From: Bizionia sp. M204
Lineage (GTDB): Bacteria > Bacteroidota > Bacteroidia > Flavobacteriales > Flavobacteriaceae
Direction: 5' to 3'
Assembly (NCBI RefSeq): GCF_023205095.1
Contig: NZ_CP046242.1
Location: 3,151,001 to 3,215,000 of the forward strand
DNA: 64,000 bases
Made by a program: the position numbers and the translations under genes. How positions within the stretch are numbered: position 1 is the first letter of the stretch; each line of letters begins with the position of its first letter. This document shows, one piece after another, positions 49,454-64,000 of the stretch. The notes under the pieces were generated by a model. The model had not been told where the DNA came from. It worked only from the letters and a program-made list of their open reading frames with translations, and made no database searches.

Positions 49454-49484
49454 ATAAAAAAAGCCTCAACATTTGTTGAGGCTT
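49454..49484 (-). terminator. Terminator of the RND efflux operon
   Basis: A 10-bp stem pairs AAGCCTCAAC (49461-49470) with GTTGAGGCTT (49475-49484), loop ATTT, and ends in a seven-T run on the minus strand. It lies 45 bases after the RND pump stop. Confidence 0.85.
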
Positions 49485-49528
49485 CCCGCTATTAGCCAAT
49501 CTTTTATTTGAGGGTACAAGAATTGGCC

Positions 49529-52500
49529 TTAAATATTTTCTGTTTTTGTTGTTTTCTTCCGATACCACATTTTTAATTGCATGGATAAAAAGAATAAAAT
49601 TGGAACCACAATCAAGGTTAAAAATGTTGCAACTAGCAAGCCGTAAATTACCGTCCATGCTAATGGACCCCAAAATACCACATTATCTCCACCCATGTAA
49701 ATATTTGGGTCTAATTCACTAAATAACGTGAAAAAATTGATATTTAACCCAATTGCTAATGGAATTAATCCTAAAATAGTTGTAATAGCCGTTAGTAAAA
49801 CTGGACGTAAACGTGCTTTACCCGCTCTTACAATACTTTCGAATAAATCTTCTTTACTCAAATACTCATGGTCCTCTAAATCTAATTCGTGTTTCTTTCT
49901 GTCAATTAATAATTGCGCATAATCGAGCAATACCACACCGTTATTTACAACGATTCCAGCTAAAGAAATAATACCAACCATGGTCATCATAATAACGAAA
50001 GCACTTCCCGTCATTACAATACCACCAAATACACCAATCAGGCTTAAAAATATGGCGAGCATAATAATGGTTGGTTTAGAAATGGAGTTGAATTGAAATA
50101 TTAAAATAAAGAAAATCAACCCTAAACCTGTACCAAATGCACCCATTAAAAATGCCATTTGTTTATTTTGCTCTTCAATTTGACCGGTATAATCTATGTG
50201 AATGTCTGCTGGAAGATTTTTGTAACCCTTCATTTCATTCTGAATTTGCTTAACAATGGCGCCCGCATCGGTATAGCCTGGGGACAAGGCTGAATAAACG
50301 GTAACCACACGTTTAGTAGCCTTATGTTTTATAGCGCTAAAACTAGAGTTGTTTTCATGTTTAGTAACCGCAGATACAGGAATACTTTTTAATTGCCCGG
50401 TGTTATCTCTAAACGTGATGTTTTGGTTAAATAAAGCACTGGTATTGTAGCGGTTTTCTTCATTAAAACGCACGTAAATATCAAAATCATCGCCATCCTC
50501 TTTATAAATACCTGCTTTGGTTCCGAAAATAGAATTACGTAATTGTTGGCCAACTTGAGCGGCACTAATACCTAATTCTCCTGCTTTTTCTCTGTCAATA
50601 ATAACACGCATGGATGGCTTATCTTTATTCACATCAATTTTCAATTCGTCAATACCCGAAATATTTTTAGTATTAATGAATTCGCGCATGCTTTCAGCGG
50701 TATTAATCAGCTCGTCATAGTCATCGCCTTCAATTTCAATATTAATTGGAGATCCAGCTGGTGGTCCATTGGCATCTTTTTCAACAGAAATAAGAACACC
50801 AGGATAAATACCAACTAATGCTTCTTGAACTTTTTGACGCAGCAACTCACTATCTTCACCTTGGCGATATTTATACTCGCGCATGGATGCTGTAATTTTT
50901 GCTTTGTGTGGCATTTCAGCCGATGACCCACTATCTGTTTGTGGATTTCCTGCACCTTCACCAACTTGTGAAACCGCACTTTCTACCATGTAGTTATAAT
51001 CACCATCACGGTATTGTTCATCATTAACTACGGTGTAAACGCGCTTTTCAATTTCTTTGGTTATGGCGTTTGTTTTTTCAATAGCTGTTCCTTGTGGATA
51101 TTCTATATAAACAATAATTTGATTTGGCTTATTGTCTGGAAAAAATTCTACTTTGGTTCGTTGTGTAGATAATGATATCCCGAAAGCCACAAAAGAAAAA
51201 ACTAAAAGCACAAAAGTTCCAATGGTTAAACCGTATAAACGCCATCCAGATAAAGCCCAGCGCAACTGATTTTCATACCAACGCTCTAAACGTACCAAGG
51301 TTTTAGTTTGAAAGTTATTGGCCCACTTACGAAGGAATAATCTATAAGCCCACTGCATTATAGCGGTGAAAATCATTAGTGTTCCTAAACCGCGATATTC
51401 GCCACCAAAAATAAGTATCAAAATACCGAAACCTGCTATTATAGACGTGTTACGGATAATTTTTTTAAGTTCCATATCCTTATCTTCGGTACTCATAAAC
51501 TGCGAGACTAAAACCGAATTAAAGAAAATAGCAACAAATAAGGATGAACCTAGAACTACGGAAAGTGTTATGGGCAATATCATCATAAACTGTCCCATAA
51601 TGCCTGGCCATAAACCTAAAGGTATAAATGCGGCAACCGTTGTGGCTGTTGAAATAATAATAGGAAAGGCAATTTCGCCAATACCTTTTTTAGCCGCTTC
51701 AATACGGCTCATGCCTTCCTCGTCCATTAAACGATACACGTTTTCTACTACCACAATTCCATTATCTACCAACATCCCAAGACCCATAATTAATCCGAAA
51801 AGAACCATGGTATTTAAACTTTGGCCTAAAAGGTTCAATATCATAAGAGATATAAACATAGACATAGGTATGGCAAACCCAACAAATATGGCGTTCTTAA
51901 ACCCTAAAAAGAACATTAAAACCAGAACGACTAGAATCACACCAAAAATAATGTTGTTTACCAAGTCGTCTACTTGACCAATAGTTACTGGCGATTGATC
52001 ATTAGCGATGCTCACCTTCAAATCCTGTGGAAACTTATTGTCAATGGCATTTTGAACAATAACTCTAATTTGTTCCGCAGCATCAACCATGTTTTTTCCA
52101 GCACGTTTTTTAACGTCTAGCATAACAACAGGTTCACCAAACTCACGCGCATATGTTGTTTTATCTTCTTCGTGAAATGTTACTGTTGCTACATCTTTTA
52201 AATACGTGGCTTTACCTTTTTCTGCTTTTACTACAAAGTTTTCTAACTCACTTGGTGTTTCTATTTCACCAAGGATACGAATGGTTCTACGCTGACCACT
52301 GGCTATTAAGTTTCCAGCAGACATGGTTACGTTTCCGTTATTAATAGCGCCTATAATATCGTTAAAAGTAACATCGGCAGCCATCATTTTATAAATATCT
52401 ACGGCAACTTCAACTTCTTTATCTTGAGCACCACGAATATCCACTTTCTTGATTTCTAATAAATCTTCTATCTCATCTTGAAGTACTTCGCCATATTCTT

Positions 52501-53008
52501 TAAGTTTTTCAATAGGATAATCGCCCGAAATATTAATGTTTAAAATGGGCATTTCTTCAGAAAGGCTTAATTCAAACACATCAGGTTTTACCTTGGCACC
52601 ATTGGACATTGGCCAATCTTCGCCTGCCGTTTTGGTGTCTATTTCATCCTTTACCTTTTGTTTGGCTTGCTCAACGGTAAGATTTTCATCAAATTCCACA
52701 ATAATCATGGAGAAATCTTCTTGTGATGTTGAGGTTATTTCCACCACATTACTAACGGTTTTTAGTTCGTCCTCAAGTGGGTCTGTAATAAGTTTTTCAA
52801 TATCTTCTGCAGTATTTCCAGGGTATATTGAGCTAACATATATTTTAGTTTCGTTTACTTCAGGAAAATTTTCACGAGGCATTTCAAAAAATGCAGCAAC
52901 ACCTAAATAAAACATCACTAGAATTAGGACATACATGGTGGTCTTGTTGTTGATTGCCCATGATGATAAACCAAATTCTTTATCGACTTGTTTTTTCTTT
53001 TTAGTCAT
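49529..53008 (-). CDS. RND efflux transporter, inner-membrane pump
   Basis: The 1159-aa protein has the RND layout: twelve membrane spans, two large periplasmic loops, and segments such as [39 protein letters not shown] (start of porter domain), [29 protein letters not shown] (span 4 with the proton-relay Asp), and [23 protein letters not shown]. It resembles the hydrophobic-efflux AcrB/MexB group more than the heavy-metal group. It exports toxic compounds through the outer-membrane partner. The genes downstream on the same strand order (53019-56201) encode the other parts. Confidence 0.93.
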
Positions 53009-61117: not shown

Positions 61118-62398
61118 ATGATTTTAGAAATGAAAGTTCCTTCGCCAGGAGAATCTATTACAGAAGTAGAAATTGCAACATGGTTAGTTGCGGATGGTGA
61201 TTACGTAGAAAAAGACCAAGCTATTGCAGAAGTAGATAGTGACAAAGCAACTTTAGAATTGCCTGCCGAAGCTAGTGGAACCATAACACTTAAAGCAGAA
61301 GAAGGTGACGCTGTAGAAGTTGGAGCGGTTGTGTGTTTAATTGATACGTCAGCTGAAAAGCCAGGAGGCGGATCAGAAAAGGATGCGCCAGAATCCTATA
61401 AAGGTGGTGGCGATGAAGGTGGCGCTACAAAAAAAGAAACCGAAGAATTAGTTAAAGATTTGGATTCAGATAAGAAGAAATCTAATCATGATAAAGCATC
61501 AAATCCTGCTAATAAATCATACGCATCTGGTGTTGCTAGTCCTGCAGCTAAAAAGATTCTAGCTGAAAAAGATATGGATGCTTCAGAAATTTCAGGGACT
61601 GGAAAAGACGGTCGCGTTACTAAAGATGATGCTGTAAAAGCAGTGCCTTCTATGGGAACACCAACAGGTGGAAACCGATCAAGCACTAGAAGTAGAATGT
61701 CTATGTTAAGACGTAAAGTAGCAGAACGTTTAGTGGAAGCTAAAAATACAACGGCTATGCTTACTACGTTTAACGAAGTAGATATGTCGCCAATTTTTGC
61801 ATTGCGAAATGAATACAAAGAAGCTTTTAAAAACAAGCATGGTGTAGGGTTAGGCTTTATGTCTTTCTTTACTTTAGCTGTTGTTAGAGCTTTGAAAATG
61901 TATCCAGATGTAAACTCTATGATCGATGGAAACGAAATGATTACTTATGATTTCGTTGATATATCTATAGCTGTTTCTGGTCCAAAAGGATTAATGGTTC
62001 CTGTAATTAGAAATACCGAAAATTTAACCTTTAGAGGTGTTGAAAATGAGGTGAAACGCTTGGCTCTTCGCGCACGAGATGGGAAAATTACGGTAGATGA
62101 AATGACAGGTGGAACGTTTACCATATCTAATGGTGGTGTTTTTGGAAGTATGCTTTCAACACCAATTATCAACCCACCTCAAAGTGGAATTTTAGGAATG
62201 CACAACATTGTTGAAAGACCTGTAGCTATTGATGGTAAGGTTGAAATACGTCCAATAATGTTTGTAGCCTTATCTTACGATCATAGAATTATTGATGGTA
62301 AGGAATCTGTAGGTTTCCTAGTAGCAGTAAAAGAAGCATTAGAAAATCCAACAGAATTATTAATGGATAATAATGTTATGAAAGCTTTAGAGCTTTAA
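61118..62398 (+). CDS. sucB: 2-oxoglutarate dehydrogenase E2 component (dihydrolipoamide succinyltransferase)
   Basis: The 426-aa protein has one N-terminal lipoyl domain ([47 protein letters not shown], the lipoylated Lys in DSDKATLE at about residue 43). A flexible Gly/Lys/Asp linker follows, then an E3-binding domain ([33 protein letters not shown], about residues 140-172) and a catalytic domain ending in [17 protein letters not shown] with the active-site His and Asp. Along with sucA it makes succinyl-CoA in the TCA cycle; the E3 gene is elsewhere. A strong terminator follows. Confidence 0.95.
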
Positions 62399-62422
62399 TA
62401 AAATACAATTCTATATAATACG

Positions 62423-62459
62423 AAAGCGCTACTTCTAAAAGAAGTAGCGCTTTTTTCTT
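62423..62459 (+). terminator. Rho-independent terminator after sucB
   Basis: A 13-bp stem (62423-62435 with 62441-62453), loop of 5 bases, is followed by a T-run. It could also end the transcript of the 43-aa peptide on the minus strand, but there its T-run is short. Confidence 0.85.
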
Positions 62460-62480
62460 GAATACATAATAACTAACTTA

Positions 62481-62612
62481 CTAAAAAAAGCAAACAAGAA
62501 TATTTAGCGATATAACAATAACGACTAGTACGATAATCCCGAAAACGAAAAATTTACTCATGTTTGAATTTTGCATGATTTCAAGGTTGTTTGGTAGATT
62601 GGAATGTTCCAT
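62481..62612 (-). CDS. 43-aa single-span membrane peptide driven by promoter module C
   Basis: A 132-base frame on the minus strand (ATG at 62612, TAG at 62481-62483) encodes a polar N-terminal part (MEHSNLPNNLEIMQNSNMSK) and one hydrophobic segment (FFVFGIIVLVVIVISLNILVCFF) to the end. It looks like a small C-tail-anchored membrane peptide. The upstream 61-bp promoter module at 62669-62729 would give a 5' leader of about 60 bases. No known family was recognised. A possible 17-aa upstream frame starts at 62677. Confidence rests on the promoter context and on the clean hydrophobic segment. Confidence 0.55.
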   Translation of the reverse strand: MEHSNLPNNLEIMQNSNMSKFFVFGIIVLVVIVISLNILVCFF

Positions 62613-62668
62613 TTTATTTGTTTTTAAAGAAGAAATAATCTAAAAATAGAAAACTCCACATCTTTGAT

Positions 62669-62729
62669 TAATAGCATGATAAAGGTAAGACTAAAGAATC
62701 ATTTAAGAAATACGTAGAACTACGTATTT
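62669..62729 (-). promoter_or_regulatory. Promoter module C: palindrome, TAnnTTTA box and TGCTATTA
   Basis: Read on the minus strand, the palindrome (arms AAATACGTAG and CTACGTATTT, two central bases) occupies 62729-62708, then 20 variable bases, then TACCTTTA (62687-62680), three bases, and TGCTATTA (62676-62669). It is the first of three modules with exactly the same spacing. The centre of the palindrome lies 35 bp upstream of the centre of the -7 box, near -42 relative to the start of transcription. No TTTG is seen at -33, so the promoter probably needs an activator. Confidence 0.75.
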
Positions 62730-62751
62730 TTTGATTTTTACATTAGAATCC

Positions 62752-62821
62752 AAAAAAAAGGGCTTTTAATCAGATGATTAAAAGCCCTCTATTAAATCCC
62801 CTCAAATAACTAACTAATAGC
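62752..62821 (-). ncRNA. Putative small RNA B (about 70 nt)
   Basis: Downstream of module B the minus-strand transcript would start near 62821 and end at a strong hairpin, GGGCTTTTAATC (62760-62771) with GATTAAAAGCCC (62776-62787), loop of 4 bases, then a run of eight T (62759-62752). A 17-codon frame starting at ATG 62823 (M-L-L-V-S-Y...) runs into the terminator stem, so the transcript could instead encode a very small peptide. The body is otherwise without conserved coding features. Confidence 0.5.
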
Positions 62822-62875
62822 ATGGTAAAGGTATGTTACATAAACCATATAAAAAATACGTAGTTCTACGTATTT
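62815..62875 (-). promoter_or_regulatory. Promoter module B: palindrome, TAnnTTTA box and TGCTATTA
   Basis: The palindrome lies at 62875-62854, followed by 20 variable bases, TACCTTTA (62833-62826), three bases, and TGCTATTA (62822-62815). The spacing is the same as in modules A and C. The variable 20 bases do not match between modules, so only the palindrome, the box and the octamer are conserved. Confidence 0.75.
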
Positions 62876-62897
62876 TTGCTGTTTTTCATTTATAGCG

Positions 62898-62981
62898 CAA
62901 AAAAAAGACCTTAAAGGTAAAACCTTTAAAGCCTTTTGATATTCAACCTGTTACTGTAAAACAAGGTCTCCGATTAATAGC
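62898..62981 (-). ncRNA. Putative small RNA A (about 80-85 nt)
   Basis: Downstream of module A the transcript would start near 62981 and end at a 15-bp hairpin with two G-T pairs (62904-62918 with 62922-62936, loop of 3 bases), then an eight-T run on the minus strand (62906-62899). A 10-codon frame starts at GTG 62983 (V-L-L-I-G-D...). The transcript would be about 80-85 nt. Confidence 0.5.
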
Positions 62982-63035
62982 ACTGTAAATATACGCCATC
63001 CTTCTGTGTTGTGAAATACGTAGTTCTACGTATTT
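62975..63035 (-). promoter_or_regulatory. Promoter module A: palindrome, TAnnTTTA box and TGCTATTA
   Basis: The palindrome lies at 63035-63014, then 20 variable bases, TATATTTA (62993-62986), three bases, and TGCTATTA (62982-62975). The right edge of the palindrome is only three bases from the last base of the response-regulator gene (63039). Confidence 0.75.
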
Positions 63036-63038
63036 TTA

Positions 63039-63677
63039 TTAGGACTCTAAAAACTGTTCGTTTTCTTTAGCAAATAGAGAAAGACTATTGTGCTTGGATT
63101 CCAGGTTTAGTTTTTTAATAATATTACTCTTGTGTTTTTCTATAGTTCTACCAGATACAGATAGGGCATTGCCAATTTCATTAGCCGTTTTGTTTTGAGC
63201 TATTAACGATAACACCTTAATCTCTGTTTTTGTTAATTCGCTTAAGGAATGCGGTCGTTGGGTGTTAGTTTGTGAATTCAAATATTGAGCAATTTCTGCA
63301 CTAAAATAGGGTTTGTTATTGGTTACGCTTTCAATACAAAGCTCAATTTCTTCAATGGCAAATTCTTTTAAAATATATCCAAAAATTTTTAATTCTTGAG
63401 CTTTATCATACAACTCTTCACCTTTATCAAAGGTTATTAAAATAATTTTAGTCTTAATCCCATTTTTTAAACACTCTTCCGCTACCTCCAGCCCCGTTAA
63501 AAAAGGCATCCTGATATCTAGAATAGCAATGTTTGGTTTGTGTTTAACAATTAAATTATAGGCTTCTTTACCATCCTTCCCACTACCCAAAATATTATAC
63601 CCCTTGGACTTCAAAAAATCATGAAGCCCACGTAACATGAGTGGGTGATCGTCCGCTATAATAATTGAAGATTGCAT
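63039..63677 (-). CDS. NarL/LuxR-family response regulator adjacent to the promoter-module array
   Basis: The 212-aa protein has an N-terminal receiver: IIIADDHPLMLRGLHDFL with Asp9/Asp10, NIAILDIRMPFLTGLEVAEE with phospho-acceptor Asp54, and ILKEFAIEEIELCIESV with the conserved Lys. A C-terminal LuxR-type helix-turn-helix reads LTKTEIKVLSLIAQNKTANEIGNALSVSGRTIEKHKSNIIKKL at about residues 148-190. No histidine kinase gene lies next to it in the window. It is the natural candidate to bind the three palindromes immediately downstream, but no equivalent palindrome was found at the same distance upstream of its own start. A TATCTTTA box at 63706-63713 may be its promoter. Confidence 0.93.
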   Translation of the reverse strand: MQSSIIIADDHPLMLRGLHDFLKSKGYNILGSGKDGKEAYNLIVKHKPNIAILDIRMPFLTGLEVAEECLKNGIKTKIILITFDKGEELYDKAQELKIFGYILKEFAIEEIELCIESVTNNKPYFSAEIAQYLNSQTNTQRPHSLSELTKTEIKVLSLIAQNKTANEIGNALSVSGRTIEKHKSNIIKKLNLESKHNSLSLFAKENEQFLES

Positions 63678-63741: not shown

Positions 63742-64000
63742 TTACAGTTTTAAATATAAATATTTCTTTTCATAATCAATTATGCCTTTTCCTTTCTTTA
63801 AAATATCAGCACCTATAATACCATCCACTGGTTGCGCATTATGATTGATTAATGCCGTGTTTACATGGGTTAGATTAAACAATATTAGCGGAACCTTATC
63901 TTGTTTCCATTGGCCAATTTTAATTTGATTTTTTTTCGAAATCTGCGTCAACATATCTATGGCACCAGCTCCTGCAGCCTTGACTTCAGAATCAATAACC
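63742..64000 (-). CDS. Retropepsin-like aspartic protease family protein, C-terminal part (truncated by window edge)
   Basis: The frame is open to the edge of the window. The visible residues read VIDSEVKAAGAGAIDMLTQISKKNQIKIGQWKQDKVPLILFNLTHVNTALINHNAQPVDGIIGADILKKGKGIIDYEKKYLYLKL when joined across the window end and the first ATG, shown here only by its parts: a DGIIGADIL strand and a C-terminal IDYEKKYLYLKL. These match the second half of clan AA (retropepsin-like) proteases, in which the catalytic Asp lies upstream, outside the window. It is exported or membrane-linked in many bacteria; that cannot be seen here. Confidence 0.65.
   Translation of the reverse strand, partial: VIDSEVKAAGAGAIDMLTQISKKNQIKIGQWKQDKVPLILFNLTHVNTALINHNAQPVDGIIGADILKKGKGIIDYEKKYLYLKL

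Follow-up and report, generated by a model that had tools for sequence, protein, structure and literature searches.

A response-regulator gene and its tandem palindromic promoter modules in Bizionia sp. M204: a predicted output block of two small RNAs and a small protein found across Flavobacteriaceae

What is produced by three promoter-like modules that lie in tandem directly behind a response-regulator (RR) gene, and which protein reads them? The question is raised by the end of the window, by which we mean the whole stretch of 64,000 nucleotides from Bizionia sp. M204 that was analysed (NZ_CP046242.1, positions 3,151,001 to 3,215,000). Small-RNA regulation is little mapped in Bacteroidota, and the locus provides an RNA family with a model, its host genera, predicted activators and starts, and an unnamed small-protein family, so that with these in hand the whole circuit becomes testable by ordinary genetics. 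We consider it very likely that the array is an RR-driven output block, in which the RR acts through the palindromes to activate two trans-acting small RNAs (sRNAs) of a family used by several regulators, together with a small, probably membrane-bound protein.

The RR gene (63039–63677, minus strand) encodes a 212-aa protein of the NarL/FixJ family with a Response_reg domain (PF00072) and a GerE/LuxR helix-turn-helix (HTH; PF00196), the nearest solved relatives of which are DesR, VraR and EvgA. In most relatives read, the RR gene is preceded by an aspartyl-protease-like gene, the end part of which lies at 63742–63999 (minus strand) in the window; a Pfam search with this fragment returned no match, and a relative of it matches PF13650 over 70 aa. 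The array starts directly past the RR stop codon and runs to 62481 on the minus strand, each module comprising a 22-bp palindrome, 20 variable bases, TAnnTTTA, 3 bp and TGCTATTA (GCTATTA), 61 bp in total. Module 1 consists of a palindrome at 63014–63035, the predicted regulator site, centred at −43.5, and a −7 box (TATATTTA, 62986–62993) with a predicted start at 62981, from which the predicted sRNA A of ~83 nt (62899–62981) extends to a hairpin and 8 T at its 3′ end. Module 2 repeats this plan with a palindrome at 62854–62875, a −7 box (TACCTTTA, 62826–62833), a predicted start at 62821 and the predicted sRNA B of ~70 nt (62752–62821), likewise ending in a hairpin and 8 T. In module 3 (palindrome 62708–62729; −7 box TACCTTTA, 62680–62687; predicted start 62675), an open reading frame (ORF) of 43 codons at 62481–62612 takes the place of the terminator hairpin, all on the minus strand. 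Between this small ORF and the convergent, plus-strand odhB-like gene lies the GC-rich terminator of the latter (~62424–62454).

A preliminary description of this DNA had reported three 61-bp minus-strand modules of the same order and spacing, which we confirm (starts 160 and 146 bp apart), and had called them identical, which they are not to the letter, as the palindromes differ on the minus strand in their middle dinucleotide (AA, AA and TT). Its reading of the modules as promoters stands, while it had missed that each is predicted to start a unit of its own, namely two terminated RNAs and one small-ORF mRNA. According to a flavobacterial start-site study, the −7 box occupies −12 to −5 (PMC9723704), and because of this published position the +1 is assigned to the G of GCTATTA (62981, 62821 and 62675, each within 2 bp of the starts proposed earlier) and the palindrome centre to −43.5, in line with the activator-type position that had been suggested. 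Conservation had also been thought to be limited to what a regulator and RNA polymerase would read; this does not hold, as GCTATTA is the predicted RNA 5′ end and most likely transcribed. The motif also opens RNAs under a different palindrome, and it is missing from the seven other TACGTA-type promoters of the genus that were read (four in the own genome, three in congeners), which have a spacer of 20 bp in five cases and 21 in two (both by eye). We rejected GCTATTA as a promoter element, since these seven promoters do without it.

Genome-wide searches set the array apart from chance: the core TACGTAGNNCTACGTA has six copies in the 3.36 Mb genome vs none for the backwards control, and the full palindrome at 3 mismatches has six matches vs two for the control, the only exact 22-mers being the three of the array. 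The own genome has four further palindrome places, of which two came up in both searches; they resemble other promoters, with 20–21 bp to a −7-like box (by eye). Random spacing in other genomes, which the preliminary description had named as a refuting outcome, was not observed: among 64 palindrome matches at 30 RR loci of other genera, 46 have a TAnnTTTR box within 16–26 bp, and the spacer is 20 in 46 of 46; the 18 matches without a box in this range include variant boxes and registers that overlap. Of the 30 best RR loci, 28 (all but L049 and L050) contain one or more palindrome matches at ≤3 mismatches, a count made without a control. As side observations, two TACGTA palindromes of the own genome (L014 and L018, ~2743184 and ~2745667) stand 20 bp before TAGGTTTG and front a closely similar pair of lipoprotein-like genes separated by 2.5 kb, which are possible further regulon members, and the palindrome also fronts two repeated promoter blocks (L010, L021 and L023; L004 and L020), each common to unrelated genes of the genus and with the look of a mobile cassette.

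Within the genus, the RR has a match in all six genomes searched; the triple array is found by its exact core in four of the six, and relaxed matching recovers 3–4 modules in each of the six, the first module of L218 having a 19-bp spacer as read by eye. Outside the genus, relatives of the RR likewise have related arrays behind them. An RR match at E ≤ 1e-30, with paralogues counted, exists in 65 of 120 family genomes, and the strict module pattern occurs in 28, 26 of them RR-positive and two RR-negative (Fisher p ~1e-6; backwards control 0). The strict pattern is missing from 39 of the 65 RR-positive genomes, which is partly due to its requirement for a single exact half-site and start. Judged by these searches, the arrangement of RR and modules is widespread in Flavobacteriaceae. 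In the two exceptional genomes (G045 and G053; loci L254 and L255), intact modules remain between protease-like, tatD-like and odhB-like neighbours (names by eye), the RR is absent from the syntenic place, and no RR was found at E ≤ 1e-30 (for G045 among the 25 of 34 first-look candidates scored); L172 is a similar case. Modules without an adjacent RR in these two genomes speak against exclusive control by the RR, and because all three loci keep modules in its absence, another protein can presumably read the palindrome.

Both predicted sRNAs have a fold z-score of −3.3 (sRNA A at 62893–62979, sRNA B at 62750–62819), and the first 23 nt of sRNA B are identical in five of the six genus genomes, L218 being one base off. 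Among 58 modules selected for a GCTATTAA-like start and a box 20 bp from the palindrome, 53 carry a terminator-like hairpin of ≤ −12 kcal/mol vs one of 58 shuffled copies, and the four modules with the weakest hairpins sit before small ORFs. The canonical form of the RNA in other genera is GCUAUUAAUUAGUUCUUAGGGAGAAUUA followed by a terminator hairpin. A consensus was built from the 23 of these modules with the common TTAGGGAG motif and served as the source of model R1; it has 19 pairs, nine of them with compensatory changes (eight in the terminator hairpin, one in hairpin 1), so that the covariation sits mostly in the terminator, as any terminator would show. The first 24 nt of the RNA rank among the most conserved positions, in copies chosen for that motif.

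With strict filters, R1 matches 59 of 199 family genomes and five of 296 phylum-drawn genomes, four of these five belonging to Flavobacteriaceae, and with fast filters it has no match in the own genome. With filters off at 11 own-genus loci, R1 gives 40.2 bits for sRNA B, 32.2 for sRNA A and 13.7 for an own-genome RNA linked to a PAS-LuxR gene (see below); only sRNA B stands clear by R1, because the background reaches 33.9 on an antisense strand (and 33.4 in a congener, at its odhB-side terminator). Promoter, place and short common motifs, rather than R1, suggest that sRNA A and the PAS-linked RNA are kin. Rfam gave no match at the gathering score in 14 loci and 24 sub-threshold matches in window positions 62300–63200. 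Host genera include Algibacter, Formosa, Olleya and Lacinutrix, and the RNA family appears, from these matches, to be present in many marine Flavobacteriaceae.

The association of the RNA with its regulators emerged from a contig scan that used the canonical 26-base RNA start only and was hence blind to promoter and neighbours. It returned at least 116 stretches with at least 124 sites, of which 121 of the 124 listed were analysed, three being too near an end. Half-sites, one or more per site, of three palindrome classes occupy the fixed place in 117 of these 121 listed sites (85 TACG, 29 TACTCA, 3 TACC; 4 none), and when the place was left free, the best palindrome was still centred there in 95 of the 121. 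TACG-class sites have an RR upstream within 3 kb in 75 of the 76 assessable listed cases (tblastn; median distance 59 bp), which upholds the earlier tie to the NarL-type gene, and TACTCA-class sites have a 256-aa PAS-LuxR protein beside the RNA in all 27 assessable listed cases (tblastn); 11 sites of these two classes were not assessable for the neighbour. The three listed TACC-class sites comprise one near a PAS-LuxR-like gene, one without and one not assessable. As the palindrome class tracks the neighbour, different LuxR-type regulators each adjoin a copy of one sibling sRNA family. At L160, a further palindrome type follows a second RR-like protein, and L204 has this arrangement twice, with two RR-like gene copies lacking a Pfam match ~7 kb apart on the minus strand (~981 and ~7939), each followed by the canonical sRNA, whose promoter has a −7 box TATCATTG and a palindrome with CCGTAAG at its end. 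In L086, the canonical-like sRNA start at 1501 adjoins an RR, and no TACGTA palindrome is recognisable at the usual place.

The own genome carries such a PAS-LuxR gene (G000:C1:1236632-1237384), found in five of the six genus genomes and followed by a TACTCA palindrome (TACTCAAATTGAGTA), a −7 box one base off TAnnTTTG (CATTTTTG) and an RNA of the GCTATTATTTGAGGG type that has TTATTTGAGGG in common with sRNA B. The protein and its relative both score over the cut-off for GerE; for PAS_3, the relative is over the cut-off with 30.6 bits and the own protein reaches 23.1 vs a cut-off of 25.6. Sibling RNAs have TTATTTGAGGG in common in the genus of the window and TTCTTAGGGAG in other genera, and this likeness within genera suggests that the siblings evolve together. 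It is possible, and we propose it tentatively, that the family forms a multi-input hub, in which the RR, the PAS-LuxR protein and, in few examples, further PAS-LuxR or RR-like receivers each have a private copy of one sRNA, with 5′ domains that stay alike inside a genome, and converge on one target set, the RR branch adding a micro-protein. If this were true, different signals would converge post-transcriptionally in bacteria without CsrA. The match of palindrome class and regulator in any case offers a natural set for reading DNA-site choice by LuxR-type proteins in Bacteroidota.

The third predicted product, the 43-aa protein, has one hydrophobic stretch of membrane-helix length (by eye) and is probably membrane-bound; it has no Pfam or NCBIfam match. 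The ORF is present in five of the six genus genomes, L218 being the exception, and differences among five congeners fall mainly at third codon positions. Of the 81 loci with at least 1.4 kb of sequence downstream of the RR, 71 have a related ORF in the 3 kb behind this gene (HMM search), a count that is partly seed material because the HMM was built from 15 ORFs of the same loci; at two of the ten misses (L046 and L050), another small hydrophobic ORF is found at the same place. The typical protein has a short N-terminal part followed by KYFIIGL..LVVIVISINILV.FF. In many loci, the ORF starts ~80–120 nt past the last RNA start, and because it begins just past the last RNA hairpin in many genera, the final module may serve as an sRNA and a leader at once.

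The anatomy, the conservation, the terminator hairpins, the association of palindrome and regulator and the conserved small ORF are observed, and on them we base the following course of events, in which transcription, binding, phosphorylation, trans action and targets are what we infer. The RR, probably phosphorylated, would bind each 22-bp palindrome at −43.5 and activate a sigma-A-type promoter at each module, all modules together, as geometry and association would have it. Modules 1 and 2 would then yield short terminated sRNAs that open with GCUAUUA and carry a G-rich stretch ahead of the terminator, and module 3 the mRNA of the 43-aa protein, probably located at the membrane. By analogy with sibling sRNAs elsewhere, the sRNAs most likely act in trans, pairing via the 5′ end and the G-rich stretch, which would let separate signals reach overlapping targets.

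Alternatively, the short RNAs could lack a trans function and the modules could represent promoters with an attenuator or terminator whose role is to adjust the level of the small protein or to restrict read-through into odhB. The position of the small ORF, beyond the hairpin and ~80–120 nt past the last RNA start in many loci, would suit such a role, as would the presence of a related ORF at 71 of 81 array loci; however, several terminated modules precede one small ORF, so a leader function is impossible for the upstream ones, PAS-LuxR genes with unrelated or convergent next genes also have this RNA 5′ domain beside them (at least 11 loci), and conservation is among the highest over the first 24 nt, in copies chosen for that motif. 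We regard this alternative as unlikely. It is extremely improbable that the palindromes function as terminators or RNA hairpins and not as protein sites: they are inverted repeats in 20 of 22 bases beside A and T runs, with a T-rich plus strand, but the plus-strand odhB has its own GC-rich terminator (~62424–62454), the distance to the −7 box is fixed and the palindrome class changes with the neighbouring regulator.

A third alternative is titration as in Gac/Rsm, in which the G-rich loops sequester an RNA-binding protein instead of pairing with mRNAs. It draws on the NarL-family RR, the palindromic site, the several sRNAs per genome and the GGA in the loop of most module copies inspected (by eye), yet CsrA/RsmA exceeded the cut-off in none of 40 genomes, the own included (one weak sub-cut-off match, in G501; the controls E. 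coli, B. subtilis and T. maritima were positive), one GGA per RNA is usual, with some copies having none (by eye), and a single GGA is reported to be insufficient in Pseudomonas (PMC2375449); we hold titration to be very unlikely. By analogy, the output block proposed here would work like GacA-Rsm, VqmA-VqmR and CiaR-csRNA, yet it is a member of none of them. GacA-RsmX/Y/Z, as outlined in PMC2375449, combines a two-component RR, a palindromic upstream site and several small RNAs, and duplication of Rsm RNAs is reported (PMC7911923). The likeness extends to the NarL/FixJ RR, the palindromic upstream site and the several small RNAs here; in contrast to GacA-Rsm, the RNAs are ~65–85 nt long and usually have one GGA rather than several, and they lie beside the RR in an array that usually closes with a small ORF. 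Against the NCBIfam GacA-family model, the RR scores 92.2 bits (cut-off 280).

For VqmA-VqmR of Vibrio, the likeness lies in a PAS-LuxR gene beside an sRNA and concerns only the TACTCA-class copies (27 of 27 assessable listed sites), vqmA and vqmR being neighbours too. In that system, a PAS and HTH regulator activates the sRNA gene via a promoter palindrome (PMC8284805). The palindromes here are different, the sRNA family is common to other regulators and the regulator in the window is a two-component RR; a phmmer search of the PAS-LuxR protein against PDB chains gave 16 matches at E ≤ 0.01, all in the C-terminal HTH region and none named VqmA. The CiaR csRNAs of Streptococcus are sibling sRNAs, each with a terminator and a promoter that the RR activates (PMC3091779). 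The repeats used by CiaR are direct (TTTAAG-N5-TTTAAG), whereas inverted repeats stand at that place here, with a LuxR-type HTH, in another phylum and with several regulators. In Flavobacterium psychrophilum, Rfp18 is a conserved flavobacterial sRNA affecting protease mRNAs; its description, which is all that was compared, includes a third stem-loop and conservation in the genus Flavobacterium (PMC9723704). Among the open-licence PMC papers listed, titles and abstract starts yielded no description of the RR/sRNA arrangement.

Searches for sRNA targets were mixed or negative, and no target is claimed. The antisense word CCCTCAAATAA, taken from the stretch common to own-genus siblings, has 29 matches in six genomes (backwards word 18; shuffled word of the same composition 5), of which 10 are the sRNA genes; the other 19 represent 12 separate loci when grouped by eye. 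Four of these 12 lie 17–24 nt ahead of a start codon, namely an mreB-like gene (three genomes), a J-domain-like gene (four) and two others once each (names by eye), with two leader matches running across the predicted start; of the others, one is in the 3′ UTR of a gene of the window for an RND-type pump (three genomes) and seven are elsewhere. The canonical antisense word has 24 matches in 10 genomes (backwards word 8), 19 of them sRNA genes and none of the other five in a leader. The best candidate duplex reached a z-score of −5.1, equalled by a site without a same-strand gene. The pump gene (49529–53008, named by eye) has its 3′ UTR at 49455–49535 of the window on the minus strand, with a hairpin (z −4.2) whose loop holds CCCTCAAATAA, complementary to sRNA B, be it as a sponge, as a target or by chance. 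Just past this hairpin stands CTAATAGC, complementary to the 5′ end of sRNA B, and the whole arrangement recurs in the congeners L225 and L238.
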